DNA from: Microlunatus kandeliicorticis | GTDB taxonomy: Bacteria; Actinomycetota; Actinomycetes; Propionibacteriales; Propionibacteriaceae | Direction of reading: 5' to 3' | DNA: 64,000 bases | NCBI RefSeq assembly: GCF_014137855.1 | Contig: NZ_JACGWT010000002.1 | Span: forward strand, 806,001-870,000 | Shown here: piece after piece, positions 9,707 through 33,989 of the stretch | Layout of the letters: every line of letters begins with the position of its first letter | Position numbering within the stretch: the stretch's first letter is position 1 | Notes under the pieces: model-generated | What the model was told of the DNA's origin: nothing | The model's input: the letters and a program-made list of their open reading frames with translations, nothing else | Databases searched by the model: none | Program-made: the position numbers and the translations under genes

Positions 9707-9752
9707 TTGACAGGGGAAAGCGTTGTCCACTAGCCTCCAGAAAACGCTTTCT
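9707..9752 (+). promoter_or_regulatory. Promoter and two LacI-type operators of the sugar-acid importer operon
   Basis: TTGACA (9707-9712) and TAGCCT (9731-9736) form a strong sigma-70-like promoter with an 18-nt spacer. A palindrome AGAAAACGCTTTCT (9739-9752) covers the expected transcription start. A second, weaker palindrome GGAAAGCGTTGTCC (9715-9728) lies within the spacer. The stronger site recurs exactly at 19953-19966 beside a LacI gene, so repression by that protein is inferred. The solute-binding protein ATG is 25 nt downstream of the operator. Confidence 0.8.
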
Positions 9753-9776
9753 GACTCGAGGACGAGGGTGGAGGAC

Positions 9777-11078
9777 ATGGGCGTCAACCGGAGACAGTTC
9801 CTGATCGGTGGGCTCGGAGCGATGGCCGCGACGGCCGGTCTCGCCGGGTTGAGCGGCTGCGGCGGGAGCTCGAGCAGCGGCTCCGCGACCAGCGGCGACC
9901 TGGCCTTCACCTGGTGGGGCAACGACGTCCGCAACAAGGAGACCACCGAGGCGATCGCCGCCTACGGCAAGGCGAACCCCGGGGTCAAGATCTCGCCGCA
10001 GCCGGGGGAGTGGGCGAGCTACTGGGACAAGCTGGCCACCCAGACCGCCGCCAACAACGCGCCCGACGTCATCCAGATGGACATGGCCTACATCTCCGAG
10101 TACGGCAACCGCGGCGCGCTGCTCGACCTGTCCAAGTACGGCGCGGACACCTCGAAGTTCGCGGCCGGCACGGTCGACTCGGGCAAGATCGACGGCACCC
10201 TCTACGGCATCAACGCCGGCATCAACACCCCGACGATCCTGGTCAACCCGAAGCTGTTCGCCAAAGCCGGCATCGACGTCCCGGACGACAAGACCTGGAC
10301 CTGGAACGACTACAAGCAGATCGCCGGCGAGCTGACCGGCAAGCTCGGCAACGGCATCGTCGGCACCGCCTCGCCGTTCAACGACGCCACCCTGAGCGCC
10401 TGGCTGCGCCAGCAGGGCAAGGAGCTCTTCGTCGACAAGGGGCTCGGCTTCACCGCCACCGACGTCGTCGGCTGGTTCCAGCTGATGCTCGACTTCCAGA
10501 ACGCGAAGGCCATGCCGTCGGCCTCGGCGATCACCGAGGAGGCCTCGCAGTCGCTCGACCAGGGCTCGCTGGTCACCGGCAAGGCCGCGATGGCCTACTT
10601 CTGGTCCAACCAGGTGGAAGCCGTCAACCAGGCCGCGGGAACCGAGATGAAGCTGCTCCGCTATCCGAGCCTGGCCGGCAAGGCCGCCGAGCGGAAGGCC
10701 TGGTACAAGGCGTCGATGCTCTGGTCGGCCTCGAGCCGGTCGAAGTCGCCCGAGGCCGCGGTCGCGTTGATCAACTGGTGGGTCAACAGCACGGACTGCG
10801 CGAACATCTGCCTGGCCGAGCGCGGCATCCCGGCCAACACCGAGGTGCTGGGCACCGTCAAGCCCAAGCTGTCCAAGGCCCAGCAGAGCGTCGCCACCTT
10901 CATCGACGAGATCAAGCCCGAGCTGGCCGACACCCCGATCGCCCCACCGCCCGGCGGCGGCACCCTGGGGGACGTGATGAGCCGGGCGATGAGCGACCTG
11001 CTCTTCGGCCGGAGCAACGTCAACGACGCCGCGAAGAAGTTCGTCGACGAGCTCACCTCCAACCTGTCCGCCTCCTGA
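9777..11078 (+). CDS. ABC sugar importer, solute-binding lipoprotein (cluster 1)
   Basis: A 433-residue family-1 solute-binding protein. ATG 9777 is preferred because GAGGG lies 8 nt upstream and the protein then begins with a Tat-like RRQFLIGG motif and the lipobox LSGC (Cys28). It is therefore an extracytoplasmic lipoprotein. The mature protein has typical CUT1 features (FTWWGNDVRNKETTEAI, APDVIQMDMAYISEY, AMAYFWSNQ). It captures a sugar or sugar-acid oligomer for the two permeases that follow 17 nt downstream. It is the first gene of the operon behind the LacI-controlled promoter. Its ligand is unknown; the glycosidase and sugar-acid enzymes nearby suggest a pectin- or rhamnoside-type oligosaccharide. 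Confidence 0.92.
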   Translation: MGVNRRQFLIGGLGAMAATAGLAGLSGCGGSSSSGSATSGDLAFTWWGNDVRNKETTEAIAAYGKANPGVKISPQPGEWASYWDKLATQTAANNAPDVIQMDMAYISEYGNRGALLDLSKYGADTSKFAAGTVDSGKIDGTLYGINAGINTPTILVNPKLFAKAGIDVPDDKTWTWNDYKQIAGELTGKLGNGIVGTASPFNDATLSAWLRQQGKELFVDKGLGFTATDVVGWFQLMLDFQNAKAMPSASAITEEASQSLDQGSLVTGKAAMAYFWSNQVEAVNQAAGTEMKLLRYPSLAGKAAERKAWYKASMLWSASSRSKSPEAAVALINWWVNSTDCANICLAERGIPANTEVLGTVKPKLSKAQQSVATFIDEIKPELADTPIAPPPGGGTLGDVMSRAMSDLLFGRSNVNDAAKKFVDELTSNLSAS

Positions 11079-11095
11079 CCCGGACCGGCTGACCG

Positions 11096-12052
11096 ATGAG
11101 TGCGATCTCCGAGCTCTCCAGTCTCAAGATCACCCGCGCCCGCACCCCGGAGGAACGCCGGATGCGGGCCAAGGAGGCCGGCCGCGACAACAAGGCCGGC
11201 TACCTCTTCCTGGCGCCCTGGCTGGTGGGGCTGCTGGTGATCACCGTGGGGCCGATGCTGGCCTCGCTCTACCTGTCCTTCACCGACTACAGCCTGATCC
11301 AGGCGCCGCGGTGGGCCGGGCTCGACAACTACGCGCGGATGCTCGAGGACCCGCGTCTGCACCAGTCGCTCAAGGTCACCTTCGTCTACGTGTTCGTCTC
11401 GGTGCCGTTGCAGCTGCTGCTGGCGCTGGCCATCGCGGTGCTGCTCGACAGGGGGATGCGCGGGCTGTCGCTCTACCGGTCGATCTTCTATCTGCCGTCG
11501 ATGCTCGGCGGCTCGGTGGCGATCGCCGTGCTGTGGCGGCAGATCTTCGGCACCGAGGGGCTGGTCAACCAGATCCTCCGGCTGTTCGGGGTGAACGCCT
11601 CCACCGGCTGGATCTCCGACCCGCAGTACGCGCTCGGGACGATCATCCTGCTGCACGTCTGGACGTTCGGGTCACCGATGGTGATCTTCCTGGCCGGGCT
11701 GCGGCAGATCCCCGGGATGTACTACGAGGCCGCCGCGGTCGACGGGGCCAGCCGGTGGACCCGGTTCACCCGGATCACCCTGCCGCTGCTGAGCCCGATC
11801 ATCTTCTTCAACCTGGTGCTGCAGATCATCGGCGCCTTCCAGTCGTTCACCCAGGCCTTCGTGGTCTCGAACGGCAGCGGGGGACCGAGCGACTCGACGC
11901 TGTTCTACACGCTCTACCTCTACCAGCGCGGGTTCGGCCAGTTCCAGATGGGCTACGCCGCCGCGATGGCCTGGCTGCTGGTGGTCATCGTCGGCGTCCT
12001 CACCGCGATCAACTTCTTCGCCTCTCGATACTGGGTGTTCTACGATGACTGA
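11096..12052 (+). CDS. ABC sugar importer permease, MalF/UgpA type (cluster 1)
   Basis: A 318-residue inner-membrane subunit with six predicted helices. The first lies in the segment GYLFLAPWLVGLLVITVGPM after a long basic N-terminal tail. The cytoplasmic EAA loop that docks to the ATPase is clear (YYEAAAVDGASRWTRFTRIT). It starts 17 nt after the binding-protein stop and overlaps the next permease by 8 nt, so the three genes are one unit. It forms a heterodimeric channel with the following gene product. No ATP-binding subunit is encoded nearby, so a shared MsiK-type ATPase elsewhere is presumably used. Confidence 0.93.
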   Translation: MSAISELSSLKITRARTPEERRMRAKEAGRDNKAGYLFLAPWLVGLLVITVGPMLASLYLSFTDYSLIQAPRWAGLDNYARMLEDPRLHQSLKVTFVYVFVSVPLQLLLALAIAVLLDRGMRGLSLYRSIFYLPSMLGGSVAIAVLWRQIFGTEGLVNQILRLFGVNASTGWISDPQYALGTIILLHVWTFGSPMVIFLAGLRQIPGMYYEAAAVDGASRWTRFTRITLPLLSPIIFFNLVLQIIGAFQSFTQAFVVSNGSGGPSDSTLFYTLYLYQRGFGQFQMGYAAAMAWLLVVIVGVLTAINFFASRYWVFYDD

Positions 12053-12983
12053 CCTCCAGGCCGCCGCTCCCGCCCGCCTCGCCCCGTCGCGCGCGGACGC
12101 CACCCGGGCCGGGTCCCGACAGGCCCCGAGCCGCCCCGAGCGCCGCGCGCACCCGGCCGCCACCGCCCGCGCGCTGATCAAGCACCTGGTGCTGATCGCC
12201 GCCAGCCTGGTGATGATCTATCCGCTGCTGTGGATGCTGGTCAGCTCGTTCCGGCCCACCGACGTGATCTTCCGGACGCCGGGGCTCTGGGTGAACAACC
12301 TGGTCACCGACAACTACAGCACCGGCTGGAACGCCTTGTCCGAGCCGTTCGGGCACTACCTGCTCAACTCGGCGCTGGTCGTGGTCGGCGCGGTGCTCGG
12401 CAACCTGACCTCGTGCTCGCTGGCGGCCTACGCCTTCGCCCGGCTGCGGTTCCGGCTCAAGACCCTGTGGTTCTCGATCATGCTGGTGAGCATCATGCTG
12501 CCGATCCACGTGATCGTCGTGCCGCAGTACATCCTGTTCAACCTGCTGGGCTGGGTGAACACCTTCATCCCGCTGGTGCTGCCGAAGTTCCTCGCCACCG
12601 ACGCGTTCTTCGTCTTCCTGATGGTGCAGTTCATCCGTGGCATCCCGCGCGAGCTCGACGAGGCCGCCCGGATCGACGGCTGCGGGCACTGGAAGATCTT
12701 CACCCGGGTGATGCTGCCGCTGATGGGCCCGGCGCTGGCCACCACCGCGGTGTTCACCTTCATCTGGACCTGGAGCGACTTCTTCACCTCGCTGATCTAC
12801 CTGACCGACCCGGCCAAGTACACCGTCCCGGTGGCGCTGCGCTCGTTCCTGGACGCCACCAGCGGCAGCAACTGGGGCGCGATGTTCGCGATGTCGGTCG
12901 TCTCGCTGGTGCCGATCTTCATCGCCTTCCTGGCCGGGCAGCGGTTCCTGGTCAAGGGCATCGCCACCACCGGCGGCAAGTGA
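12045..12983 (+). CDS. ABC sugar importer permease, MalG/UgpB-partner type (cluster 1)
   Basis: A 312-residue permease with a long Ala/Arg/Pro-rich cytoplasmic leader (residues 1-40), six hydrophobic helices and the EAA loop ELDEAARIDGCGHWKIFTRV. It ends in the typical QRFLVKGIATTGGK tail of CUT1 MalG-like subunits. It overlaps the upstream permease gene (12045-12052) and is translationally coupled to it. A 103-nt gap separates it from the oxidoreductase gene, with no convincing terminator, so the operon may continue through. Confidence 0.93.
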   Translation: MTDLQAAAPARLAPSRADATRAGSRQAPSRPERRAHPAATARALIKHLVLIAASLVMIYPLLWMLVSSFRPTDVIFRTPGLWVNNLVTDNYSTGWNALSEPFGHYLLNSALVVVGAVLGNLTSCSLAAYAFARLRFRLKTLWFSIMLVSIMLPIHVIVVPQYILFNLLGWVNTFIPLVLPKFLATDAFFVFLMVQFIRGIPRELDEAARIDGCGHWKIFTRVMLPLMGPALATTAVFTFIWTWSDFFTSLIYLTDPAKYTVPVALRSFLDATSGSNWGAMFAMSVVSLVPIFIAFLAGQRFLVKGIATTGGK

Positions 12984-13086
12984 TCCCGGGCCGCCGGGCC
13001 CTCAGCTCCGTCAGAGAACCGGCGCGCCAGACTCGACGGAGCGAGACCGAGCAGACCCACCCGACCCGAGCACAGGAGAGCCACAC

Positions 13087-14415
13087 GTGAGCAGGACCCG
13101 TTACGCGGTCGTCGGCACCGGACACCGGGTGCAGATGTACCTCGGCGCGATCGCCGGTGACCACCGGGACGACGCCGAGCTGGTGGCGTTGCTCGAGCCC
13201 AACCCGGGCCGGCTGGCCGTCCACCAGGGCTGGCTGACCGACGCCGGGCTCGACCTCTCCGGGGTGGCCACCGGTCACCCGGACCGGCTCGAGGAGCTGC
13301 TGGCCGCCCAGCGGGCCGAACGGCTGATCGTCACCTCGCCGGACTTCACCCACGCCGGCTACATCGTCCGTGGGCTCGAGGCGGGTGTCGACGTGGTGGT
13401 CGAGAAGCCGCTGACCATCGACCCAGACGGCGTCCGCGCCATCGCGCAGGCGGTCGACCGGACCGGCCGGCGGGTGGTGGTCACCCACAACTACCGCTAC
13501 AGCCCGCGCAACTCGGGACTCAAGCAGCTGGTCAAGGAGGGCGCGGTGGGCACCCCGCTCTCGGTCACCTTCGAATGGGTGCTCGACACCGCGCACGGTG
13601 CGGACTACTTCCGCCGCTGGCACCGGGACAAGAAGAACTCCGGCGGGCTGCTGATCCACAAGGCCTCGCACCACTTCGACCTGATCAACTGGATCCTGGC
13701 CGACGCCCCCAGCCGGGTGTTCGCCAGCGGCGGGGTGCGCTTCTACGGCGCCGAGAACGCCGAGCGGCGCGGGCTGCCGCCCCGGCCGCCGCGCGGCACG
13801 CACGACGGGTCGCGGACGCCGTGGGAGCTCGACCTGCGCGACGACCCGAAGCTCGAGGCGCTCTACCACGCCAACGAGAGCTACGACGGCTACCTGCGCG
13901 ACCAGGACGTGTTCGGGCCCGGCGTGACCACCGAGGACAACCTGGCCCTGGTCGTCGACTACGAGCACGGCGCGACGCTGAGCTACGCGCTCAACGCGCA
14001 CAGCCCGTGGGAGGGCTACCGGATCGCGGTCAACGGCACCGAGGGCCGCGCCGAGCTCGAGGTGATCGAGCGCGCCGCGGTGCTGGAGGACGAGGACGGC
14101 AAGGTCGTCGTCGATCCGAGCGCGCTGCCCGAGCACGCCAGCCGCCAGGGCGGTCAGCGGCTCACCCTGCAGCGGCACTGGCAGCCGGCCGAGGACGTCC
14201 CGATCGTCGAGGGCGCCGGAGGTCACGGTGGCGGTGACGCGCTGCTGCTGGCCGACGTGTTCCGCGGCCCGGGCGACGACTGGCTCGAGCGCCCCTCCGA
14301 CTGGGTCGACGGCGTCCGTTCGGTGGCGGTCGGGATGGCCGGCAACGTGTCGCTGCGCACCGGACGGGCGGTCACCGTCGACGAGCTCGACCTCGGGGTG
14401 AAGCTGTCCCGGTGA
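13087..14415 (+). CDS. Gfo/Idh/MocA family NAD(P)-dependent oxidoreductase
   Basis: A 442-residue sugar dehydrogenase-like protein starting at GTG 13087 with AGGAGA 8 nt upstream. The N-terminal Rossmann fold has YAVVGTGHRVQMYL, and the family's EKP motif is at about residue 107 (VVVEKPLTID). The catalytic-domain signature KNSGGLLIHKASHHFDLINW contains the conserved Lys and His residues. Family members oxidise or epimerise hydroxyls of sugars, uronates, inositols and glycosides, sometimes by transient 3-keto chemistry. It overlaps the downstream glycosidase gene by 4 nt (ATGA), which suggests that the oxidoreductase prepares or processes that enzyme's substrate. A second Gfo/Idh/MocA domain occurs in the fusion protein of the same locus. 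Confidence 0.9.
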   Translation: MSRTRYAVVGTGHRVQMYLGAIAGDHRDDAELVALLEPNPGRLAVHQGWLTDAGLDLSGVATGHPDRLEELLAAQRAERLIVTSPDFTHAGYIVRGLEAGVDVVVEKPLTIDPDGVRAIAQAVDRTGRRVVVTHNYRYSPRNSGLKQLVKEGAVGTPLSVTFEWVLDTAHGADYFRRWHRDKKNSGGLLIHKASHHFDLINWILADAPSRVFASGGVRFYGAENAERRGLPPRPPRGTHDGSRTPWELDLRDDPKLEALYHANESYDGYLRDQDVFGPGVTTEDNLALVVDYEHGATLSYALNAHSPWEGYRIAVNGTEGRAELEVIERAAVLEDEDGKVVVDPSALPEHASRQGGQRLTLQRHWQPAEDVPIVEGAGGHGGGDALLLADVFRGPGDDWLERPSDWVDGVRSVAVGMAGNVSLRTGRAVTVDELDLGVKLSR

Positions 14416-16931
14416 GCCATCCGGACCCGTCCCGCCCGCTCGACCTCGCGGCCCTGCGGGCCGGGTTCGTCGACCCGCCACGCGAGGCCGCGCCGATGAT
14501 GCGGTGGTGGTGGTTCGGCCCGAGCGTCGAACGCGGTGAGCTCGACCGCGAGCTGACCGCGATGGCGGCGGCCGGGATCGGCGGCGTCGAGATCGCCTAC
14601 GTCTACCCGCTGGCGCCCGCGACCATCCGCTTCCTGTCGCCGGAGTTCCTGGCCGACCTGCGCTGGGCGGCCGAGCGCGCCCGCGCCCTCGGTCTGCGCG
14701 TCGACCTGACGCTGGGCAGCGGCTGGTCGTTCGGCGGTCCGCACGTCAGCCCCGAGCACGCCGCCCGGCGGCTCTGGTGGGACCGGCGCGAGATCGGCCC
14801 CGCAGCCCTCACGGTCTCCACCGTGGCGGGCTTCCCCGGCGACCGGTTCGTCGCGGCCTATCTCGGGTCCGGCTCCCGTCAGGAGGAATCCGACGACGTC
14901 GTCCAGCTCGCGACCGACGGCGACCGGGTCCGGGTGCCCGCCGGCGCCGGTCCGCGGCAGCTGCTGCTGGCCTGGTCGCGTCCGACCGGTCAGAACGTCA
15001 AGCGGGCCGCAGCGGGTGCCGAGGGCCCGGTGTTCGACCACTACGCCGCGGAGGCCACCGCCGAGCACCTGGCCGCGGTGGGGGACCCGCTGCTCGACGC
15101 CGTCCCCGCCGCCCTGCTCGGCTCGGTGTTCTGCGACAGCCTCGAGGTCTACGAGGCCGACTGGACGCCCGCGCTGCCCGAGGAGTTCGAGCGCCGCTGC
15201 GGCTATCCGCTGCTGCCGGAGCTGTACCGGCTGGCCGGCGACCACGGCGACGCCGAACGCGCCCGTCGGGTGCGGGCGGACCTGCACCGGACGCTCAGCC
15301 GGCTCTACGAGGAGCACTTCGTCGTCCCGGTCCGCGACTGGGCCCGGCGGCGTGGGGTGCCGTTCCGGATCCAGGGCTACGGCACGCCGCCTGCGCTGGT
15401 CAGCAGCTACCGGCACGCCGACCTGATCGAGGGGGAGGGCTGGGGCTGGAAGCGGCTCACCCAGACCCGCTGGGCCAGCTCCGCGGCGCACCGCTACGGA
15501 CGTCCGGTGGTGTCCTCGGAGATCTGGACCTGGGTGCACTCGCCGTCGTTCCGGGCCACCCCGCTCGACCTGCTCGGTGAGGCGCACGAGCACCTGCTGC
15601 TGGGGATCAACGCCTTCGTCGGGCACGGCTGGCCCTACTCGCCCTCGGACGCCCCCGGGCTGGGCTGGATGTTCTACGCCGCCGGGGCGCTCGACGACCG
15701 GAACCCCTGGTGGCCGGCGATGCCTTCTCTGACCCGCCGGCTCAGCCGGCTCTGCTGGCTGCTCCGGCAGGGCGAGCCGGTCGCCGACGTCGCGGTCTAC
15801 GTCCCCACCGAGGAGGTGTTCGCCCGGATGGGCACGGCGCAGGGCGGCTCGCTCGACGCCTGGCGCGAGACCCGGGCGCTGATCGGCGACGCCGTGGTCG
15901 GGGCGATCCGCGAGGCCGGGCTCGACTACGACCTGGTCGACGACGACGGCTTCGCCGGCTTGGAGGCCGATCGCTACCGCGCCCTGCTGGTGCCCGACGG
16001 CTGCGTGCTGTCGGCAGGAGCTGCGCACTGGGCCGAACAGCTGACCGCCGCCGGGGGTCAGGTGATCACGCCGGACACGCTCGACGAGCTCGAGCCGGAT
16101 CTCCTGATCACGCCGCGGGTCGCCGCGCTCGGCCACGTCCACCGCCGGCTCGCCGACGTCGACGTCTGGCTGGTGGTCAACACCGGACCCGACCGGCTGA
16201 CCGCCACCGTACGGCCGCGCACGAACGCGGATCGCTGGCAGAGCTGGGATCCCGCCACCGCCGCGGTGACCAGAGCGGGGACGCTCGCCGACGGGATCGC
16301 CATCGAGCTCGAGGCCTATCAGGCGGTGGTGATCATCACCGGGGACGTCGACGACGGTCCGGTGGCGGTCGCCGACCCGCCGGCCGAGCGGGTGACCCTG
16401 GGCGACTGGACGGTCGCGGTCGAGGACGAACCGCCGCGGCCGGTCGGGTTGCCGCACCGCTGGGAGGACGAGCCGGTGCTGCGTCACCACGCCGGCTCGG
16501 CGGTCTACCGCACCACGCTGCCGCCGGTCCCGGCCGGGGCCCGGGTGGTGCTCGACCTGGGGCCCTTCGTGCCCGGGGACGACCGCGGGAGTGACCAGGA
16601 CGGGATGGTGGGGCCGTCGTACCGGGTGGCCGAGGGGGCCCCGGTCGGGGTCGCCGCGCGGGTCGGCGTCGACGGTGTCGAGCTCGGGGTGATCTGGGCG
16701 CCGCCGTACCGGGTGGACCTGACGACGGCGGTCGCCACCGGCGGCCGGGTGCTCGAGATCGAGGTGTTCAACACCGCGGCGAACGCGCTCGCGGTCGACG
16801 AGGAGATCCTCGCGCTGGCCGCGGCGGCGGAGGCGCGCGACGGTCGCCGGTTCCGGATGCAGCAGCTCGACCGGGCCATGGACGGCGCGCGTTCCGGGTT
16901 GCTCGCCGTCCCCACCCTGTTGGTCGGCTGA
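14412..16931 (+). CDS. GH106-like glycoside hydrolase (alpha-L-rhamnosidase-like), cytoplasmic
   Basis: An 839-residue protein. The opening PMMRWWWFGPSVERGELDRE and MAAAGIGGVEIAYVYPL strands, the GSGWSFGGPHV motif and the FCDSLEVYEADWTP segment are characteristic of GH106-like proteins. That family includes alpha-L-rhamnosidases acting on rhamnogalacturonan and flavonoid glycosides. A C-terminal beta-sandwich (ARVVLDLGPFVPGDD to VLEIEVFNTAANAL) is present. It is shorter than classical GH106 enzymes (about 1,000 or more residues) and lacks a signal peptide, so it works in the cytoplasm on imported substrate. It is translationally coupled to the oxidoreductase. Activity as a rhamnosidase is inference; other linkages are possible. 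Confidence 0.65.
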   Translation: MSHPDPSRPLDLAALRAGFVDPPREAAPMMRWWWFGPSVERGELDRELTAMAAAGIGGVEIAYVYPLAPATIRFLSPEFLADLRWAAERARALGLRVDLTLGSGWSFGGPHVSPEHAARRLWWDRREIGPAALTVSTVAGFPGDRFVAAYLGSGSRQEESDDVVQLATDGDRVRVPAGAGPRQLLLAWSRPTGQNVKRAAAGAEGPVFDHYAAEATAEHLAAVGDPLLDAVPAALLGSVFCDSLEVYEADWTPALPEEFERRCGYPLLPELYRLAGDHGDAERARRVRADLHRTLSRLYEEHFVVPVRDWARRRGVPFRIQGYGTPPALVSSYRHADLIEGEGWGWKRLTQTRWASSAAHRYGRPVVSSEIWTWVHSPSFRATPLDLLGEAHEHLLLGINAFVGHGWPYSPSDAPGLGWMFYAAGALDDRNPWWPAMPSLTRRLSRLCWLLRQGEPVADVAVYVPTEEVFARMGTAQGGSLDAWRETRALIGDAVVGAIREAGLDYDLVDDDGFAGLEADRYRALLVPDGCVLSAGAAHWAEQLTAAGGQVITPDTLDELEPDLLITPRVAALGHVHRRLADVDVWLVVNTGPDRLTATVRPRTNADRWQSWDPATAAVTRAGTLADGIAIELEAYQAVVIITGDVDDGPVAVADPPAERVTLGDWTVAVEDEPPRPVGLPHRWEDEPVLRHHAGSAVYRTTLPPVPAGARVVLDLGPFVPGDDRGSDQDGMVGPSYRVAEGAPVGVAARVGVDGVELGVIWAPPYRVDLTTAVATGGRVLEIEVFNTAANALAVDEEILALAAAAEARDGRRFRMQQLDRAMDGARSGLLAVPTLLVG

Positions 16932-16955
16932 CGGGTTGGTCGGCCGTCCGGGCGC

Positions 16956-17600
16956 TCAGCGCAGCGAGGCGACCAGCTGGTCGGCCCGATGGCGCAGCGC
17001 CCCGAGGTCGCCGCCGGTGAGGGCGTCACCGACCAGCGAGCCGCTGACCCCGACCGCCGCCGCCCCGAGCCGCAGGTAGTCGGCGGCGTTGTCGACGGTC
17101 ACCCCGCCGGTGGGCATCAGCGCGATGTCGGGCAGCGGGCCACGCAGCTCGCGGAGGTAGTCCGGTCCGCCGAGCGGCCCGATCGGCGACACCTTGACCA
17201 GCGGGACGTCGAGCTCCCAGGCGGTGACGATCTCGGTCGGGGTGAGCGCACCGGGGACGTAGCTCAGCCCGAGCTCGGCTGCGGTGGCGACCAGCCGGGG
17301 CAGGACCACCTGGCTGACCGCGAAGTCGGCCCCGGCGTCGGCCGCGGCCCGCAGGTGGTCGGGGGTGCGGACGGTGCCGACGCCCAGCAGCACGCCAGGC
17401 AGCCGGCGCTTGGCCTCGACCAGCGCCTCGAGCGCGCCCGCGCTGGTCATCGTGAACTCCAGGCAGGTCAGCCCGGCCTCGGCCAGCACCTCGGCGGCCG
17501 CGACGAACCGGCCGGCGTCGGGGGCGCGGAAGATGCCGACCGCGGCCGCCTCGGGCAGCACCGAGGCGCGGCGGGCGGAGCGGGTGGTGGTGCTGGTCAT
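16956..17600 (-). CDS. eda: KDPG/KHG-family 2-keto-3-deoxy sugar-acid aldolase
   Basis: A 214-residue class I aldolase. The active-site pattern of the family is present: Glu48 in CLEFTMTS, the GVGTVRT phosphate/carboxylate loop, and Schiff-base Lys136 in PLVKVSPIGPLGG, followed by LMPTGGVTVDNAADYL. These enzymes cleave 2-keto-3-deoxy-(6-phospho)gluconate or galactonate analogues to pyruvate and an aldehyde. The usual VKFFPAE around the lysine is VKVSPIG here, so the substrate may differ from KDPG. ATG 17600 has GAGGAG upstream and overlaps the esterase stop by 4 nt. It gives the locus a plausible last step for a sugar-acid pathway fed by the dehydratase encoded 3.4 kb away. Confidence 0.85.
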   Translation of the reverse strand: MTSTTTRSARRASVLPEAAAVGIFRAPDAGRFVAAAEVLAEAGLTCLEFTMTSAGALEALVEAKRRLPGVLLGVGTVRTPDHLRAAADAGADFAVSQVVLPRLVATAAELGLSYVPGALTPTEIVTAWELDVPLVKVSPIGPLGGPDYLRELRGPLPDIALMPTGGVTVDNAADYLRLGAAAVGVSGSLVGDALTGGDLGALRHRADQLVASLR

Positions 17601-18772
17601 CGGGCTCTCCTCGTGGGTGGTCGGTGGACGGGTGCCGGGGCGGCGGGCCGCAGGGCGTCGTCGAGGAAGGCCCAGGCCTCGGCCTGCTCGGTGGCCCCGA
17701 AGCCGTGCGGGCCGGGGTGGAAAGCACCGGTGTAGCGGTCGGTCCCCCGGTGCAGCACGGTCAGCCGGTCGTCGGCGGCCCGCATCCCCGCCGGGGTGAA
17801 GAGGGCGTCGTCGCTGCGGTAGCTGACCAGGAACCGGGCGCGGCCGAGCCGGGTCAGGTCGGGCCACTCGGTGTGCACCGCCAGCCCGGGGGCGTGCAGC
17901 AGCCAGCTGTGCTGGTCGATCCGGTCCGGGACGGTGGACGCGAAGGTCGCCATCATGCAGCTGACCACCGCGGCCCGCACCCGGTGGTCGAGCGCGCCCA
18001 GCAGCAGGGCCCGACCGCCGCCGCCGGAGAACCCGAAGCAGCCCAGTCGGTCCCGGTCGACGCCGGGCAACCCGGCCACCAGGTCGAGCGCGGCGAGGTC
18101 GTCGGCGAGCACCAGCCCGGCGAAGGTCTGGCCGAGGATCCCGGCGGTCTTGGCCACGGTCTCCTCGTGCCAGTTCGAGACCGCGTCGAACCGCTCGTCG
18201 TCGGACGGCCGGACGCCGTCGCGTGCCCAGCGGGCCTCGAGGGCGTCGATCAACCCGGCCAGCTTGACGGTGGGTCGGGACAGGTCGAACCTGCGGCTGT
18301 CCCAGGAGAAGGCGTCGTGGGCGAGCACGGCGTAGCCGCGGCGGGCCAGCGCGCTGGCCGGGGCCAGGCCGTCGTAGGCGCTCTGCTGCATCGCCCGGGC
18401 GCGCGGGCGGGTCCGCTCACCCAGGTCGACGAGCTGCTCGCCGCCGACCGACCGGGCGCCGCCGTGGCAGTGCAGGGCGAGCACCCCGGGCAGCGGCTCG
18501 GCCGTGCCCTGCGGGCGGAGCAGCCAGCCCCGCGTCCGCGGCCCGTAGCCGACCGTCCAGTCCAGCGGCTGCGCCTCGACGCCGTCGACCACGAGCGACG
18601 GGCCGGTCCGGACGTCGGTCGCGGTCAGCGCGGGGATGCCGAGCAGCCGGGCGACGGCGTCGGTCTCCGGGTCGTCGGCGGTCCAGGTTGCGGCGCCGTG
18701 GGCGTGGGCGGGCCAGTCCTCGTAGCCACCGATCGGGGTCGGCTGCGACGGGAGGGTGCTGGGTGTCGTCAC
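17597..18772 (-). CDS. Alpha/beta-hydrolase, acetyl-esterase/lactonase-like
   Basis: A 391-residue alpha/beta-hydrolase without signal peptide. It shows the oxyanion strand VLALHCHGG, the nucleophile elbow GFSGGG with Ser249, and a likely catalytic His in HPGPHGFGATEQ. It resembles the large acetyl-xylan-esterase/dienelactone-hydrolase-like enzymes of sugar clusters. In this locus it could remove acetyl groups from imported oligosaccharides or open an aldonolactone made by the sugar dehydrogenase. Sequence alone does not choose between these. It overlaps the LacI gene upstream and the aldolase downstream by 4 nt each, so the three are translationally coupled. Confidence 0.8.
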   Translation of the reverse strand: MTTPSTLPSQPTPIGGYEDWPAHAHGAATWTADDPETDAVARLLGIPALTATDVRTGPSLVVDGVEAQPLDWTVGYGPRTRGWLLRPQGTAEPLPGVLALHCHGGARSVGGEQLVDLGERTRPRARAMQQSAYDGLAPASALARRGYAVLAHDAFSWDSRRFDLSRPTVKLAGLIDALEARWARDGVRPSDDERFDAVSNWHEETVAKTAGILGQTFAGLVLADDLAALDLVAGLPGVDRDRLGCFGFSGGGGRALLLGALDHRVRAAVVSCMMATFASTVPDRIDQHSWLLHAPGLAVHTEWPDLTRLGRARFLVSYRSDDALFTPAGMRAADDRLTVLHRGTDRYTGAFHPGPHGFGATEQAEAWAFLDDALRPAAPAPVHRPPTRRAR

Positions 18773-19875
18773 CGGGCCACCCGCCGCCGGCGCGACGTCC
18801 GTCCCGCGGAGGTGGCGACCGGCGCGGGCCCGGTGCTCGCCCGTCGCTCGACCGAGGGGCGGAACACGGCGTGCCCCGGCGTCGTCCGGCCGCCGAGCCG
18901 GTCGGCCATCCGGTGCCAGGCCTGGACACCGAGCTCGTCGACCGGGACGGCCGCGGTGGTGAGCGGCGGGCTCAGGTAGCGGGCGAACGGGATGTCGTCG
19001 AAGCCGGTGACCGAGACGTCCGCGGGCACCCGGATCCCGCGTTCCCCGAGCCCGCTGAGCAGCCCCATCGCCACCAGGTCGTTGAAGGCGAGCACCGCGG
19101 TCGGCTGACCGCCCTCCGGATCGCCGGCCCCGACGTGCCCGGCGATCCGGTCGGCGACGGTGGCCGCGGCCGCGTACCCGTCGGCGAAGTTGACCCCGCA
19201 GGGCAGCGTCACCACCCGGGCGTCCGGGTGGTCGGCGCCGAAGTCGCGGACCGCGGCCAGCCGGCGGGTGTTCGACGCGCTCCGGGAGGCCCCGGCCAGA
19301 TAGACCAGCTCGCGGTGCCCGTCGGCGTGCAGCAGCTCGAGCAGCTCCGCCAGCGCGGCCCGGTAGTCGGCCGCGACCACCGGGGTCCCGGTCGGGTCGG
19401 TGCTGCCCGGCTCCCGGTTGACCAGCACGACCGGTTGCAGCTCACCGAGCAACCGGCGCAGGTCGTCCTCGGGCATCCGCGGCGCGCAGAGCACCAGCCC
19501 GTCGCAGCGGCGCCGGGTGGTGCCGGCCAGCGCGATCTCCTCGGTCACCGACTCTGCCGAGTCGGCCACCAGGATGTGGTAGCCGTCGCGGCCCGCCGCC
19601 CGGCTGAGCCCGCGCAGGACGCCCAGGAAGGTCGGGTTCTCCAGGTCGGGCACCACCACCGCGACGGTGTTGGTCTTGCCGAGCACCAGGCTCCGGGCCA
19701 GCGGGCTGGCGGAGTAGCGCAGGTCGTCGGCGGCCTGCCGGACCTTGGCCGCGAGCGCGCGGTCGACCCGCGGGTTGTCGTTGAGCACCCGTGACACGGT
19801 GGCCAGGGAGACCCCGGCGCGGGCGGCGACGTCGGCGATGGTCGCGGGCCGGGACGCGCGTGGCTCGGTGCTCAC
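18769..19875 (-). CDS. LacI-family repressor of the sugar-acid locus
   Basis: A 368-residue regulator starting at GTG 19875 with GGAG upstream. The N-terminal HTH reads ATIADVAARAGVSLATVSRV, followed by the hinge helix region SASPLARSLVLGKTNTV and a periplasmic-binding-like sensor domain (DGLVLCAPRM, AVLAFNDLVAMGLL, VSVTGFDDIPFARYLSPPLT). The palindrome AGAAAACGCTTTCT lies 77 nt upstream between this gene and the divergent dehydrogenase operon, and recurs at the importer promoter at 9739. I infer that this protein binds both sites. It heads a three-gene operon with the esterase and aldolase genes. Confidence 0.93.
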   Translation of the reverse strand: MSTEPRASRPATIADVAARAGVSLATVSRVLNDNPRVDRALAAKVRQAADDLRYSASPLARSLVLGKTNTVAVVVPDLENPTFLGVLRGLSRAAGRDGYHILVADSAESVTEEIALAGTTRRRCDGLVLCAPRMPEDDLRRLLGELQPVVLVNREPGSTDPTGTPVVAADYRAALAELLELLHADGHRELVYLAGASRSASNTRRLAAVRDFGADHPDARVVTLPCGVNFADGYAAAATVADRIAGHVGAGDPEGGQPTAVLAFNDLVAMGLLSGLGERGIRVPADVSVTGFDDIPFARYLSPPLTTAAVPVDELGVQAWHRMADRLGGRTTPGHAVFRPSVERRASTGPAPVATSAGRTSRRRRVAR

Positions 19876-19952
19876 CTGCGCGCTCCGGTGCTCACGGTCG
19901 CTCCTCGGGACGTCGGCCCTGGCTGCCGCACCAGGTCGTCCTGTACGGTATC

Positions 19953-19966
19953 AGAAAACGCTTTCT
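19953..19966. promoter_or_regulatory. LacI-type operator shared with the importer promoter
   Basis: AGAAAACGCTTTCT, a 14-nt palindrome with one mismatched pair, lies in the 174-nt divergent region between the lacI operon and the dehydrogenase operon. With the preceding C it forms a 15-nt exact repeat of 9738-9752. A TACGGT box at 19944-19949 could be the -10 of the rightward promoter, placing the start point inside the operator. Confidence 0.75.
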
Positions 19967-20049
19967 CGGCGTCCGGACGACGTCGCGGGCTCGCGTCGCG
20001 TCTCGGCGGACGAGTCCATCGTGCCCGAAGCGACGAGCGGGAGGTCAAC

Positions 20050-21030
20050 GTGGGGAACGGTCCATCCGGGACGGAGCCGCTGCGGATCGTGGTCACCGGC
20101 GGGGCCGGCCGACTCGGGCGCAGTGTGGTCGCCGGGCTGCGGGCGGCCGGCCACGCGGTGCTGTCGGCCGACCGGGAGTCCGGTGGGGGTGAGCCGTCGG
20201 TCGCGGTCGACCTGCTCGACCCGGAGGCGGCCCGCCGGACCTTCGCCGACTTCGGTGCCGATGCGGTGATCCACCTGGCCGCGATCGCGGTGCCCTTCAG
20301 CGCACCCGAGCGGACGATCTGGACGACCAACACCGCCCTGGCCTTCACCGTGCTCGAGGCCGCCGTGCAGGCAGAGGTCGGTCGGGTCGTGGTGGCCAGC
20401 AGCCCGACCGTCTACGGATACAACGCGCCCGGCGGGTGGGTGCCCGAGCGGTTCCCACTCGACGAGGACGTCCCGCCACGGCCCTGGAACGCCTACGCCG
20501 CCTCGAAGCTGGCACACGAGCAGCTGGTCGCCACCTTCGCCCGGCAGCACGGCGATCGCGTCCGGTTCGCCGCCTTCCGGCCCTGCTACGTGATCGCGCC
20601 CGAGGAGTGGGCCGGCGCCCTCACCCAGCAGGGCCACACCGTCCGGGCCCGGCTGGACGACCCCGCGCTGTCGGCCGCCGCGCTGTTCAACTACGTCGAC
20701 GCCCGCGACGTGGCCGATTTCCTCGAGCGGCTGCTCGAGCGGCTGCCGGTGATCACCAACGGCGAGACCTTCCTGGTCGGCGCCGAGGACGCGCTGGCCC
20801 GCGAGCCGCTGGCCGAGCTGCTGCCGCGCTTCCACCCCGGCACCGCCGCGGTGGCGGCCGGACTGACCGGGACCGAGCCCGCGTTCACCAGCGCCAAAGC
20901 GGCCCAGCTGCTCGGCTGGCGGCCCACCCGGCGCTGGCGGAGCGAGCTCGTCGACCATGATCATCTCGCTGGCGGTCACGGACCGGGTGATCACGACCTC
21001 CAGGTCCCGGCGGGCGGAGCGGCGCGGTGA
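20050..21030 (+). CDS. NAD-dependent sugar epimerase/dehydrogenase (extended SDR)
   Basis: A 326-residue extended short-chain dehydrogenase. GTG 20050 is chosen because GGGAGG (20039-20044) lies 5 nt upstream. It has the TGGAGRLGRSVV nucleotide loop, VIHLAAIAVPF, VVVASSPTVYGY and the catalytic YAASK, and ends with a NYVDARDVADFLERLLERL C-domain segment. NAD-dependent epimerases, uronate dehydrogenases and related sugar dehydrogenases share this fold. In this locus oxidation of a sugar to a lactone is attractive because a dehydratase follows directly. The stop overlaps the GTG of the next gene. The last 25 or so residues, rich in His/Gly, look non-conserved. Confidence 0.85.
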   Translation: MGNGPSGTEPLRIVVTGGAGRLGRSVVAGLRAAGHAVLSADRESGGGEPSVAVDLLDPEAARRTFADFGADAVIHLAAIAVPFSAPERTIWTTNTALAFTVLEAAVQAEVGRVVVASSPTVYGYNAPGGWVPERFPLDEDVPPRPWNAYAASKLAHEQLVATFARQHGDRVRFAAFRPCYVIAPEEWAGALTQQGHTVRARLDDPALSAAALFNYVDARDVADFLERLLERLPVITNGETFLVGAEDALAREPLAELLPRFHPGTAAVAAGLTGTEPAFTSAKAAQLLGWRPTRRWRSELVDHDHLAGGHGPGDHDLQVPAGGAAR

Positions 21031-23330
21031 CCGGGCCGACGATCGTCGCGCTGGAGATCGAGCGCCACACCGCGCGGCTCCCGCGTCCGTGGGGGGCCGA
21101 CGTGCCGGTCAACCACGTGATCGAGGTCCGGGTGACCGACAGCGACGGCGGCACCGGCACCGGCTTCAGCTGGACGCCGACGATCGGGGTCGAGTCGGTG
21201 CAGGCGCTGCTCGAGCACGACGTCCGGGCCACCGTGCTCGGTGCGGCCGCCGACGCCGCCACGCTGTGGCCGCAGCTGTGGGCCCGGCTGCACGAGGCCG
21301 GTTCGGGCGGCGTGACCACGATCGCCATGGCCGGCGTCGACCTGGCGCTGTGGGACCTGGCCGGACGCCGGGCCGGCCGGTCGCTGGCCGGACTGCTCGG
21401 CCGCCGCCGCGACGACGTCGAGGTCTACGGCAGCGGCGTGAACCTGCACTACCCGCTCGACGAGCTGCTGGCCCAGGTGCGGCGCTGGATCGAGGCCGGG
21501 TTCGGGGCGGTCAAGATCAAAGTCGGCCGGCCCGACCTCGGCGAGGACGTCGAGCGGGTGGCCGCGGTCCGCGAGCTGCTCGGTCCCGACCGTGCGCTGA
21601 TGATCGACGCCAACCAGCGGTGGGACCTCGACCGGGCGACCCGGGCGATGGCCGCGCTGGAGCCCTACCGGCCGGCCTGGATCGAGGAGCCGCTCCGCGC
21701 CGACGACCTGGCCGGTCACGCCGAGCTCCGGCGACGGATCGCCACCCCGGTGGCGATGGGGGAGAACCTGCACACCGTCTACCGGTTCCGGGACGCCCTC
21801 GACCTCGGCGCGGCCGACGTGCTGCAGCCCAACGTGGTCCGGGTCGGCGGCATCACCCCGTTCCTGACCGTCGCCGCGCTGGCCGACGCGCGCGGCGTCG
21901 CCCTGCACCCGCACCTGCTCCCCGACGTCTCCGGCCAGCTCGCGCTCGCGCTCGACCGGCCCTGCCTGGTCGAGGACGTCGAGGACGCCGGGCTCGCCGG
22001 GTTGGGGCTGCTGGCCGGCCCGTCCCCGGTGCGGATCGCCGGCGGCCGGCTGACCGAGACCGGGTCGCCGGGGCTCGGGCTGACCTTCGCCTCCGGCGCC
22101 GAGCCAGGCCGGAGGACCGCACCGAACGCCGCCCGGACGGCCCCGCCCGCGCGCGCCGTGCTGGTCGGGGTCAACGGCTTCGGACGGGTGCACGCGACCA
22201 ATCTGGCGCGGCTGGCCGTCGAGCGTCCGGGGCTGGTCAGGCTGGTCGGCGCGGTCGACCCCGCGGTCGATCCGGCCGTCGACCCCTACCCCGAGGGCCC
22301 GCTGTCCGGCACCCCGGTGTTCGGCGACCTGGGCACCGCCCTCGACCGCGTCGGCCCGGTGGACCTGGTGATCGTCGCCGCCCCGATCGGCGCGCACGCG
22401 TCGCTCGCGGAGACGGCGCTCCGGGCCGGGGCGGACGTCCTGCTGGAGAAGCCGCCGGTGGCCACCCTCGCCGACTTCACCCGGCTGCACGCGCTCGAGG
22501 ACGAGACCGGCCGGGTCGTCCAGGTCGGGTTCCAGAGCCTGGGAGCGCACCTCGACGGTCGCCGCGGCGCCGACCTCGTCGCCGCCGACGCGGTGGGCAT
22601 CGGTCGGGTGCGACGGGTCGGCGCGGTCGGGGCCTGGCGCCGGACCGCCGGCTACTGGACGCGCTCGCGGTGGGCCGGCCGCCGGAGCCTCGACGGCCGG
22701 CCGGTGATCGACGGCGTGGTGACCAACCCGCTCGCGCACGCCGTGGCCACCGCGCTGGCCGCCGCCGGCGCCCGGACCCTCGACGACGTCACCGCGGTCA
22801 CCGCGGACCTGCACCGGGTCAACCCGATCGAGAGCGACGACACCTCGGTGGTGCGGATCGCCACCACGTCGGGGATCGAGGTCACCTGCGCGTTGACGCT
22901 GTGCGCGCCGGAGGAGCACCCGCCGGTCGTCCACGTCGACGGGGAGCACGGGCGCGCCACCCTGGCCTACACGACCGACCGGCTGACCCTGCCCGACGGG
23001 CGGACGCTGGGGCTCGACCGGACCGACCTCGTGGAGAACCTGCTCGACCACCGCCGGGACGGGCGTCGGTTACTGGTGCCGCTCGCCGACACCGGGGCGT
23101 TCATGCGGGTGCTGGACGCGGTGGCCGCGACCGAACCGCAGCCGGTCGACGCGGAGTGGGTGCGCTGGTCGGGCGAGGGGGACCAGCGGGCGCCGGTGCT
23201 CGAAGGCATCGAACGCTGGCTCGACCGGGCCGTCGACGAGGGCCGGACGTTCGTCGAGCTCGGGGTGCCGTGGGCCCGGCCCGGCTCCGGAGCGGGAGCC
23301 CGTACGCAGACCGTGGAGGCGAGCCGATGA
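21027..23330 (+). CDS. Fusion: enolase-superfamily dehydratase + Gfo/Idh/MocA oxidoreductase
   Basis: One uninterrupted 767-residue reading frame. Residues 1-360 are a mandelate-racemase-subgroup enolase-superfamily domain. It has the KxK pair (Lys163, Lys165 in AVKIKVG), metal ligands Asp194 (MIDANQRWD), Glu220/221 (WIEEP) and Glu246 (MGENLHT), and His294/His296 (LHPHLLPD). After a Pro/Ala/Arg-rich linker (about 360-378), a second enzyme begins with a Rossmann fold (VLVGVNGFGRVHATN) and EKP motif (VLLEKPPVATL), typical of Gfo/Idh/MocA oxidoreductases. Residue 269 is Asn (LQPNVVRVGG) where mandelate racemase has the Asp of its Asp-His dyad. It overlaps both neighbours by 4 nt. The fusion suggests coupled redox and dehydration/epimerisation of one sugar acid; the substrate is unknown. 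Confidence 0.88.
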   Translation: MTGPTIVALEIERHTARLPRPWGADVPVNHVIEVRVTDSDGGTGTGFSWTPTIGVESVQALLEHDVRATVLGAAADAATLWPQLWARLHEAGSGGVTTIAMAGVDLALWDLAGRRAGRSLAGLLGRRRDDVEVYGSGVNLHYPLDELLAQVRRWIEAGFGAVKIKVGRPDLGEDVERVAAVRELLGPDRALMIDANQRWDLDRATRAMAALEPYRPAWIEEPLRADDLAGHAELRRRIATPVAMGENLHTVYRFRDALDLGAADVLQPNVVRVGGITPFLTVAALADARGVALHPHLLPDVSGQLALALDRPCLVEDVEDAGLAGLGLLAGPSPVRIAGGRLTETGSPGLGLTFASGAEPGRRTAPNAARTAPPARAVLVGVNGFGRVHATNLARLAVERPGLVRLVGAVDPAVDPAVDPYPEGPLSGTPVFGDLGTALDRVGPVDLVIVAAPIGAHASLAETALRAGADVLLEKPPVATLADFTRLHALEDETGRVVQVGFQSLGAHLDGRRGADLVAADAVGIGRVRRVGAVGAWRRTAGYWTRSRWAGRRSLDGRPVIDGVVTNPLAHAVATALAAAGARTLDDVTAVTADLHRVNPIESDDTSVVRIATTSGIEVTCALTLCAPEEHPPVVHVDGEHGRATLAYTTDRLTLPDGRTLGLDRTDLVENLLDHRRDGRRLLVPLADTGAFMRVLDAVAATEPQPVDAEWVRWSGEGDQRAPVLEGIERWLDRAVDEGRTFVELGVPWARPGSGAGARTQTVEASR

Positions 23331-24436
23331 CCACCACCACCCCCAGCCGGGTCGGCGGCACCGACACCGGATCGGACGAGCGGCGGACCAAACAGCGCCG
23401 GCTGCGCGAGGTGCTCGACCGTGCCGACCAGGACGCCGTGCTGCTGACCAGCGCCACCGCGCTCGGCTGGTACCTCGCGGGTGCCCGGAGCCACGTGAGC
23501 CTGGCCGCCGACCCGATCGTCGCGGTCCGGGTCACCCGGGACGACCGGGCACCCGGCGGGGTCGCCGACGACGTGCTGGTCACCGACAACGAGACCGCCC
23601 GGCTGGTCCACGAGGAGCTGCCCGACGACGTCACGGTCTGGGAGCGGCCGTGGTTCGCGCCGCTGCCCGACCTGCGCGCCTGCCCGGAGTCGGTGCTGGC
23701 CGACGCGTTGCGCGCGGCCCGGGCTCCGCTGCTCGCGCCCGAGATCGACCGGTTCGCCCGGCTCGGCCGCGACGCCGCCGCGGTGCTGACCGACGCGCTG
23801 GCCGCGGCCACCCCCGACCAGACCGAGCGCGAGCTCGCCGGGGCGGTGGCCGGCGCGCTGGCCGCGCACGGTGCCGACCCGCTGGTGGTGCTCGTCGGCG
23901 GGTTGGCGCGGAGCTCGTTGCCGCACCCGCTGGCGACCGACGGGCCGCTGGGGGACCGCGCGCTGCTGGTGGCCTGCGCCCGGCGCGACGGGCTGATCGT
24001 CAACCTCAGCCGGGCGGTGGCCTTCCGGCCGCTGACCGCGGGCGAGCGCGACGCCCAGCACCGGATCCTCGAGGTCGAGCGGGAGACCCTCGACGCCACC
24101 CGTCCGGGGGTGCGGCTCTCCGAGGTGCTGACGGTGATCGCCGGCGCCTACGAGCGGCACGGCTTCGGCGCCGACCACTGGCGCGGTCACCACCAGGGCG
24201 GCGTCGCCGGGTACGCCGGGCGGGATCCACGGGCGACGCCGGACACCCACGACCCGGTCCGGCTCGGCCAGGCGTTCGCGTGGAACCCGTGGGCCCCCGG
24301 CGCCAAGGTCGAGGACACGGTGCTGCTGGCTGGCGACGACGCCCGCCCGGCGTTCGAGACGCTCACCACCGACCCCCGCTGGCCGGTCACCGAGGTCGGC
24401 GGCCGCCCGCGTCCGGTGGTCTGGGAGCGCGGCTGA
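23327..24436 (+). CDS. M24 (pita-bread) family protein, creatinase-like, metal ligands lost
   Basis: A 369-residue protein with a creatinase-type N-terminal domain (LREVLDRADQDAVLLTSATALGWYL) and a C-terminal pita-bread domain (GAYERHGFGADHWRGHHQGG, then WAPGAKVEDTVLL). In metallopeptidases two Asp, one His and two Glu bind metals. Here the first region reads GLIVNLSRAVAF, without the two Asp, and the usual Glu-Pro-Gly is NPWAPG. The catalytic His is kept. It is therefore more like metal-free creatinase than prolidase and may hydrolyse a C-N bond. It is the last gene of a coupled operon with the dehydrogenase and fusion protein, and its role there is unexplained. Confidence 0.75.
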   Translation: MTTTTPSRVGGTDTGSDERRTKQRRLREVLDRADQDAVLLTSATALGWYLAGARSHVSLAADPIVAVRVTRDDRAPGGVADDVLVTDNETARLVHEELPDDVTVWERPWFAPLPDLRACPESVLADALRAARAPLLAPEIDRFARLGRDAAAVLTDALAAATPDQTERELAGAVAGALAAHGADPLVVLVGGLARSSLPHPLATDGPLGDRALLVACARRDGLIVNLSRAVAFRPLTAGERDAQHRILEVERETLDATRPGVRLSEVLTVIAGAYERHGFGADHWRGHHQGGVAGYAGRDPRATPDTHDPVRLGQAFAWNPWAPGAKVEDTVLLAGDDARPAFETLTTDPRWPVTEVGGRPRPVVWERG

Positions 24437-30859: not shown

Positions 30860-30913
30860 GGTGCCGCGGGCCGGTGTGGGCCGGCCCCGTCCGCCGTGGG
30901 AGGGACCAGTCAG

Positions 30914-31603
30914 GTGACCGATCAGCCCGTGACCGACACCGGCGTCCGCGACGCGATCGCCCGGCTGCGGGTGGAGGTCGCCGCGCTGCACGCCGAGCTG
31001 CCGGCGAACGACCTGGTCGTCTGGACCGCCGGCAACGTCTCGGCCCGGGTGCCCGGCGCCGACCTGCTGGTGATCAAGCCGTCCGGCGTCCGCTACGACG
31101 AGCTGACCCCCGAGGCGATGGTGGTCTGCGACTTCGACGGACAGCTGGTGCAGGGGGAGCGCGCCCCGTCCTCGGACACCGCGGCGCACGCCTACGTCTA
31201 CCGGCACCTGCCCGAGGTCGGCGGCGTGGTGCACACCCACTCCACCTACGCGACCGCCTGGGCCGCCCGGCGGGAGCCGATCCCGTGCGTGCTGACGATG
31301 ATGGCCGACGAGTTCGGCGGCGACATCCCGGTCGGGCCGTTCGCGGTGATCGGCGACGACTCGATCGGCCGCGGGCTGGTCGAGACGCTGGCCGGCACGC
31401 GGAGCCGCGCGGTGCTGATGGCCAACCACGGGCCGTTCACCGTGGGGCCGACCGCCAAGGCGGCGGTGAAGTCCGCGGTGATGTGCGAGGAGGTCGCCCG
31501 CACCGTCCACATCGCCCGTCAGCTCGGCGAGCCGACGCCGATCGAGCCGGCCCTGATCGACTCGCTCCACGACCGCTACCAGAACGTCTACGGCCAGCGC
31601 TGA
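30914..31603 (+). CDS. araD: L-ribulose-5-phosphate 4-epimerase
   Basis: A 229-residue class II aldolase-fold protein that interconverts L-ribulose 5-phosphate and D-xylulose 5-phosphate. Zinc ligands His107 and His109 ([11 protein letters not shown]) and His172 (MANHGPF) are present. So are the phosphate-binding TAGNVSAR and [10 protein letters not shown] motifs and the SSDTAAH segment. GTG 30914 follows GGAGGG by 9 nt. The gene opens the operon araD-araA-phosphatase-mutarotase behind operator B. Length and motifs match AraD rather than fuculose aldolase. Confidence 0.93.
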
Positions 31604-31653
31604 GCGCCGGCCGCCACCCACCCGACGAACGATCCACCGAGAAAGCGAGTCCG

Positions 31654-33141: not shown

Positions 33142-33989
33142 GCGAACCGACCACCGGAGCCGGAGCGGCCACCCCCGACGTCGCCGAGCGGCTGGCGTTC
33201 GCCCGTGAGCTGATCACCGAGGCGGGTGCGCTCGCGCTGTCCTACGCCGAGCGGGTCGGCAGCCTCGACGTCAGCCTCAAGGGTCCGCAGGACCTGGTCA
33301 GCGAGGCCGACGTGGCCGTCGAGAAGCTGATCAAGGAACGGCTCGCCGCCGCCTACCCCGACGACGGCTTCCTCGGCGAGGAGACCGGGGCCGCCGCGCT
33401 CGAGGACACCGACCACGTCTGGGTGGTGGACCCGATCGACGGGACCCAGCCCTTCACCCTCGGCTTCCCCACCTGGTGCGTGTCGATCGGCGTGGTCAGC
33501 CGGGGCAGGCTGGCCTTCGGGCTGGTCAACGCCCCGGCCGCCGGCGAGCTGTTCGTCGGCGGGCACGGCGTCCCCGCGACGCTCAACGACCGGCCGATCC
33601 GGGTCCGCGACGCCGACCGGCTGACCGACGGGCTCACCTATCTGGGGCACTCCAGCCGGGCCGCGCCCGAGTACGTCGTGCCGGTGCTCGACCGGCTCCT
33701 CCGCGGCGGCGGGATGTTCGTCCGCAACGGCTCCGGTGCCCTCGGGCTCTGCGACGTCGCCGCCGGCCGGCTGGTCGGGCTGGTCGAGTCGCACATGAAC
33801 TCCTACGACTGCCTCGGCGGGATCGCCGTGGTGCAGGCGGCCGGCGGGCGGGTCAACGACTACCTGGTCGGGGACGCGCTGACCCGCGGCAACTGGATCG
33901 TGGCCGGACCGCCCGGCCTCTACGACACCCTCGTCGAGGTGCTCGGCGACGCCCGTCTGCGCGAGGCGGGGGAGGAGACAGCCCGATGA
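33138..33989 (+). CDS. Inositol-monophosphatase-family sugar phosphatase
   Basis: A 283-residue Mg-dependent phosphatase. It shows the IMPase signatures FLGEETG (Glu81/82), DPIDGTQPF (Asp98, Asp101) and a C-terminal [17 protein letters not shown] in place of the usual WDxAAG. GTG 33138 overlaps the araA stop and its own stop overlaps the mutarotase ATG, so it is translationally coupled inside the arabinose operon. The substrate could be a sugar phosphate, inositol phosphate or histidinol phosphate. A house-cleaning role for arabinose or ribulose phosphates is an inference from position. Confidence 0.88.

Follow-up and report, generated by a model that had tools for sequence, protein, structure and literature searches.

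A 64,000-nucleotide stretch of the genome of the soil actinobacterium Microlunatus kandeliicorticis (assembly GCF_014137855.1, contig NZ_JACGWT010000002.1, positions 806,001 to 870,000 of the forward strand; hereafter the window, whose coordinates are used throughout) encodes, in one open reading frame at 21027-23330 on the plus strand, an enolase-superfamily domain of the mandelate-racemase type followed by a Gfo/Idh/MocA oxidoreductase domain. Only the window's locus is fused and the two genes are separated by TGA in 22 others, pointing to a fusion of coupled operon genes in one species. We therefore consider it likely that two neighbouring genes of a sugar-acid operon, coupled in translation, have fused in this species alone, probably recently; it looks like a local rearrangement of a known operon type, not a new enzyme class. 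The frame is composed as follows:

21027..22088, plus strand: enolase-superfamily (mandelate-racemase subgroup) domain, residues 1-354, assigned from Pfam MR_MLE_N/MR_MLE_C, conserved residues and the nearest structures, 2ovl and 5xd7
22089..22157, plus strand: linker of 23 codons, 87% G+C; in relatives this place holds a TGA and the second gene's start
22158..23330, plus strand: Gfo/Idh/MocA oxidoreductase domain, ending in a short tail in place of a DUF6807 extension, assigned from Pfam, predicted fold and invariant residues

Translation of 21027-23330 yielded 767 residues and a single terminal stop, and a search of the organism's own genome (G000) recovered an unbroken match to residues 1-767, in agreement with an earlier note on this DNA that had described one 767-codon frame without a stop in the linker. 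The next match listed in that genome, at 38% identity, covered the enolase half only, and no further match to the fused protein was found there at E 1e-80. The note had also claimed two full domains, and this was supported by four Pfam domains above their cut-offs, namely MR_MLE_N (2.3e-10), MR_MLE_C (7.7e-62), GFO_IDH_MocA (5.4e-14) and, narrowly, GFO_IDH_MocA_C3 (PF22725, 4.6e-6; 27.1 bits against a cut-off of 27). Family-invariant residues are likewise kept, at 99/99 positions of the enolase-type domain (compared with 21 relatives) and 46/47 of the oxidoreductase (30 relatives), the same as when each of the other aligned proteins is omitted in its turn. Third-position G+C is 0.972 in the enolase half and 0.963 in the oxidoreductase half, and two insertions in the latter are in frame.

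We compared this arrangement with the 80 best of 305 candidate loci from public genomes and with whole genomes searched in overlapping samples, each including the own genome: 40 relatives, 20 genomes of the genus, 391 of the order, 394 of the class and 396 of the phylum, at E limits of 1e-3, 1e-80, 1e-100, 1e-90 and 1e-90, respectively. No second full-length unbroken match was listed in any of these samples. After removal of repeat copies of the same place, 118 enolase-type loci had a readable 3′ end, representing 113 distinct sequences (five pairs show no difference across most of their length, none of them among the 22 adjacent-gene loci described below). Only the window's own locus extends more than 40 residues beyond the domain; with one fused locus in 118, the comparison revealed no conserved two-domain family, that is, none fused in more than one species. 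An oxidoreductase gene lies directly downstream on the same strand in 22 of the other 117 loci, and a TGA separates the two genes in all 22. The second gene of 19 pairs is in phase 2 with the stop inside ATGA or GTGA, a possible start-stop overlap (for some of them the true start may be a later ATG), and that of the other three is in phase 0 after an in-frame TGA. Elsewhere the genes are further apart: many Micrococcaceae and Microbacterium loci have them several kilobases from each other on opposite strands. A genome of the same genus (G017:C9, L086) has an extended oxidoreductase gene beside an AXE1-like gene, with no enolase-type match at E 1e-80. The earlier note had named homologs that are always two genes as grounds for rejecting the fusion. 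Every homolog examined is indeed two genes, and so the fusion holds for this sequence and not for the family.

Two candidates for a further fusion were rejected. Matches in G526 and G463 that seemed to cross the domain border have no oxidoreductase match there, and the single frame of locus L064, which joins an oxidoreductase, a DUF6807-like part and an M24 part, contains 104 N, a scaffold gap. The Nonomuraea gerenzanensis record lists no genes at the corresponding place, and in a plasmid search 1 of 1515 matching records spans at least 80% of the query, as two pieces. Another locus of the genus (G016) is apparently the same as that of a Propionibacteriaceae metagenome-assembled genome (L003), the alignment identities being equal. 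We found no such enolase-type/Gfo fusion in the open-access library searched or among this protein's relatives, which the genome searches followed; in the passages of PMC9795676 consulted, the words 'fusion' and 'fused' are absent.

A fusion confined to one species, with all relatives examined unfused, could also be a sequencing or assembly artefact, the organism having two genes like its relatives that were joined by an error in the junction. The 87% G+C of the junction and the origin of the data in one species and one assembly of 9 contigs favour this explanation, as does, by analogy, the statement in PMC3711429 that frame transitions confined to one genome are often errors or recent indels. 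The junction itself argues otherwise. Its 69-base interval (22089-22157) contains stop triplets in no phase, and past it the two other phases meet their next stop at 22369 or beyond 22757. In the oxidoreductase phase no ATG, GTG or TTG occurs from the end of the first domain until a GTG at 22158, which encodes residue 8 of the modelled oxidoreductase domain and falls, in the predicted structure, within its first strand (residues 5-10). As the interval lacks both a stop and a start from which the second domain could be translated, a sequencing error of one base cannot account for the fusion. Were the assembly one base too long, its correction would bring back the relatives' commonest phase yet leave no stop, and so could not hide their arrangement; one missing base would imply a phase seen in 0/22 relatives. 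A single base lost in the overlap does not yield the relatives' arrangement either, once the phases are worked out. A screen for coding-phase switches flagged three suspicious places in 464 kb of the own genome (window included) and three in 340 kb of G018, a single-contig genome of the same genus, and detected 41 of 78 single-base losses planted in long genes; the similar counts, at this recovery, give no sign of an indel-rich assembly. We consider the artefact unlikely. The screen also placed one flag at about 28103 of the window, on the minus strand, near the border of two ABC importer genes.

The ends of the fused frame are consistent with the fusion of coupled genes, since the operon's two other junctions here are both overlaps: the GTG start overlaps the stop of the preceding short-chain dehydrogenase/reductase (SDR) gene as GTGA (21027-21030), and the TGA stop overlaps the start of the following M24-type gene as ATGA (23327-23330).

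The C-terminal half has the features of a Gfo/Idh/MocA oxidoreductase. The Rossmann/EKP domain that the earlier note had described was confirmed by a PF01408 match over the cut-off and by the EKP motif, which is invariant in 31/31 aligned oxidoreductases; the C-terminal alpha/beta domain appears both in the narrow PF22725 match and in the model, and the predicted fold of 22137-23327 has a mean pLDDT of 93.4. The C-terminal end could be read in 64 related oxidoreductases, of which 47 carry an extension of more than 200 residues (46 of them 265-330; the other, L064, is the locus interrupted by N); two further oxidoreductases run off their locus. Pfam identified the extension as DUF6807 in the two proteins scanned, those of the same-genus genomes G010 (6.4e-56) and G018 (1.6e-57). 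The four closest same-genus oxidoreductases (59-62% identical) are extended and the next, L097 at 56%, is not. Each of seven relatives aligned with it is extended, and the window's protein ends 11 residues past the clearly shared part. DUF6807 has no match at E 1e-15 in the own genome (98.6% complete), and 7/20 genus genomes match. The long extension occurs in actinobacteria and in one Acidobacteria metagenome-assembled locus (L020, 288 residues), and the open-access library searched gave a single passing mention of DUF6807.

Several points weigh against the fusion of two working operon genes. The evidence comes from a single genome assembly, in which an error of at least two bases in the G+C-rich junction is possible; even the nearest solved structures are distant from the oxidoreductase (best phmmer E 3.7e-7); the oxidoreductase is 60% identical to that of G016, with G010 and G018 both at 64%; its rough NG86 dN/dS values are 0.339/0.568 for window-G010 and 0.121/0.479 for G010-G018; and an oxidoreductase without DUF6807 may be changing role or decaying. 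The corresponding rough values for the enolase half are 0.185/0.457 and 0.073/0.388. From its higher window-G010 values, the oxidoreductase may be somewhat relaxed in this lineage. Its identity to L006 is 51% for the window and 52 and 56% for G010 and G018.

These observations bear on whether the locus is decaying, the oxidoreductase half having lost DUF6807 and its own start, so that the fused protein would retain only the enolase-type activity. DUF6807 is missing from the gene and unmatched in the genome, start and stop are both lost, and the oxidoreductase is more diverged, with higher dN/dS, in comparisons that involve the window. On the other hand, nearly all its invariant residues and its codon bias are kept, its insertions are in frame, and it resembles the distant L002 no less than those of G010 and G018 do (47% identity against 44 and 45%). 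Moreover, the other 17 of the 64 related oxidoreductases, mostly more distant ones, likewise stop after the oxidoreductase domain. Decay is, in our judgement, improbable. Somewhat more credible, if still doubtful, is a swap of partners in which the oxidoreductase lost DUF6807 and gained an N-terminal enolase-type enzyme, giving a bifunctional dehydratase/NAD(P) oxidoreductase that would act on successive pathway intermediates; no other example of such a natural bifunctional enzyme occurs among the relatives searched.

The earlier note had taken the fusion to suggest that a sugar acid passes between a redox step and a dehydration or epimerisation step; on this reading the two domains would be joined because one active site makes what the other takes up. 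Adjacent genes in 22 relatives, and a location in one region in many more, speak for such a hand-over. The enzymes are, however, separate proteins in every relative examined, including all 22 neighbouring pairs, the genes of many Micrococcaceae lie kilobases apart on opposite strands, and G017 has the oxidoreductase with no close enolase-type copy. Moreover, where relatives give the oxidoreductase a covalent partner, that partner is the C-terminal extension that the window lacks. This distribution does not support the inference, and we regard hand-over as very unlikely to be the reason for the fusion.

The enolase-type half belongs to the mandelate-racemase subgroup of the enolase superfamily, with both MR_MLE domains, the KxK motif and the D/E/E metal ligands. 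Residues K163, K165, D194, E220, E246 and H296 are present in the window and identical in 113/113 relatives, which upholds the KxK motif and metal ligands of the earlier note; its HxH motif did not stand as a family feature, the first His (294) being His in only 27/113 relatives. The subgroup has an Asp-His pair on the opposite face (D270/H297). The window has the His (H296), but Asp is replaced by N269 (codon at 21831-21833), and by Asn in 113/113 relatives. From sequence, this Asn-His enolase-type group may be an uncharacterised activity group.

The fused gene lies in a cluster with the following features:

20050..21030, plus strand: SDR of the NAD-dependent epimerase/dehydratase family (Pfam Epimerase 1.9e-32), start uncertain (20044 or 20050), GTGA overlap with the fusion
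23327..24436, plus strand: M24 peptidase-fold protein (Pfam Peptidase_M24 6.5e-13), ATGA overlap with the fusion, a frequent neighbour in relatives' clusters
18769..19875, minus strand: LacI-family regulator, divergent (Pfam)
17597..18772, minus strand: alpha/beta hydrolase, AXE1-like (Pfam AXE1 1.5e-6), putative lactonase or esterase
16956..17603, minus strand: KDPG/KHG-type aldolase, start approximate, the C-terminal part of open reading frame 16956-17867 (Pfam Aldolase 2.8e-32 on that frame)
13087..14415, plus strand: second Gfo/Idh/MocA oxidoreductase (Pfam; by synteny present in many relatives' clusters)
9723..12983, plus strand: ABC sugar importer, binding protein (Pfam) and two permeases (by position, reading of the frames and conservation)

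The cluster at 9723-24436 has the same gene order in G010 and G018, beginning with the importer and ending with the M24-type gene, and comprises the importer, a Gfo/Idh/MocA gene, a GH106 alpha-L-rhamnosidase-like gene (present in the window, G010 and G018), the KDPG-type aldolase, the AXE1-like hydrolase, the LacI regulator, the enolase-type gene, the oxidoreductase and the M24-type gene. An SDR beside the enolase-type gene was seen for G010 only, SDR neighbours being under-counted in the synteny comparison. The importer, SDR, hydrolase, KDPG-type aldolase and LacI regulator around the fusion agree with the sugar-acid setting given in the earlier note. Going by what is known of the families, the cluster suggests a route in which a sugar is oxidised to an acid, dehydrated to a 2-keto-3-deoxy acid and split by aldol cleavage. 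A second sugar cluster lies at 30896-34942 of the window; it has a class II aldolase-family gene (Pfam), followed by frames that by eye resemble L-arabinose isomerase, a phosphatase and an aldose epimerase.

In relatives the enolase-type gene ends in a TGA, which in most cases overlaps a possible start codon of a Gfo/Idh/MocA gene. For the preferred reading, fusion of coupled operon genes, we propose that in this lineage stop and start were both lost with the phases matching, so that one ribosome pass would make both enzymes as a single chain, about 23 linker residues separating them. The substrate of the N-terminal domain would be an aldonate, aldarate or lactone; the domain would remove the proton beside its carboxylate (using a lysine base, Mg2+ and H296) and then eliminate water or open the ring, giving a 2-keto-3-deoxy acid. 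The C-terminal domain would use NAD(P) to oxidise or reduce a sugar or sugar acid belonging to this pathway, and the KDPG-type aldolase would cleave afterwards. Tethering would hold both enzymes at equal amounts and would not require a channel. The product is most likely a tethered bifunctional enzyme, two joined enzymes that are probably used in sugar-acid breakdown. The locus offers a clean example of how the loss of a single start-stop junction can fuse bacterial genes, the unfused relatives serving as controls. In addition, it links an oxidoreductase that often bears DUF6807, a domain whose Pfam name marks its function as unknown, to an Asn-His enolase-type group that is apparently uncharacterised; because both groups are tied in one shared cluster, an assay of the fused protein might aid in placing each of them in a pathway.

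The solved structures that match the N-terminal domain best in sequence are 2ovl, 5xd7, 2og9 and 2pp0, the closest being 2ovl (a putative racemase) and 5xd7 (a 3,6-anhydro-L-galactonate cycloisomerase); 2pp0 is a talarate/galactarate dehydratase. The best NCBIfam match is also to L-talarate/galactarate dehydratase (NF047820, 4.3e-74), at 249.6 bits against a curated cut-off of 500, which leaves the domain outside that family. The active-site list of S. coelicolor SCO3480, as given in PMC9706016, is matched by the window at KxK, D, E, E and His, each one position earlier; it includes Asp-270 and the window has N269 there, so the domain departs from this cycloisomerase site set, and both 2ovl and 5xd7 align an Asp at the same position. 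Given this Asn, neither the cycloisomerase nor the dehydratase activity should be copied over to the fused protein. Foldseek revealed that the C-terminal domain has the same overall fold as WlbA, scyllo-inositol/L-glucose dehydrogenase and glucuronide 3-dehydrogenase P2B11 (PDB), at 16-24% identity among the 50 matches listed, an identity at which the substrate cannot be read from them. The 3,6-anhydro-L-galactonate cycloisomerases and 2ovl are stand-alone enzymes, whereas the window's domain is fused; and the same-genus oxidoreductases L136:11270-13264 and L124:11391-13382, which lie in the same operon and are 62% identical to the C-terminal half across the alignment columns they have in common, carry a C-terminal DUF6807, whereas that of the window is joined instead to an enolase-type domain in front.

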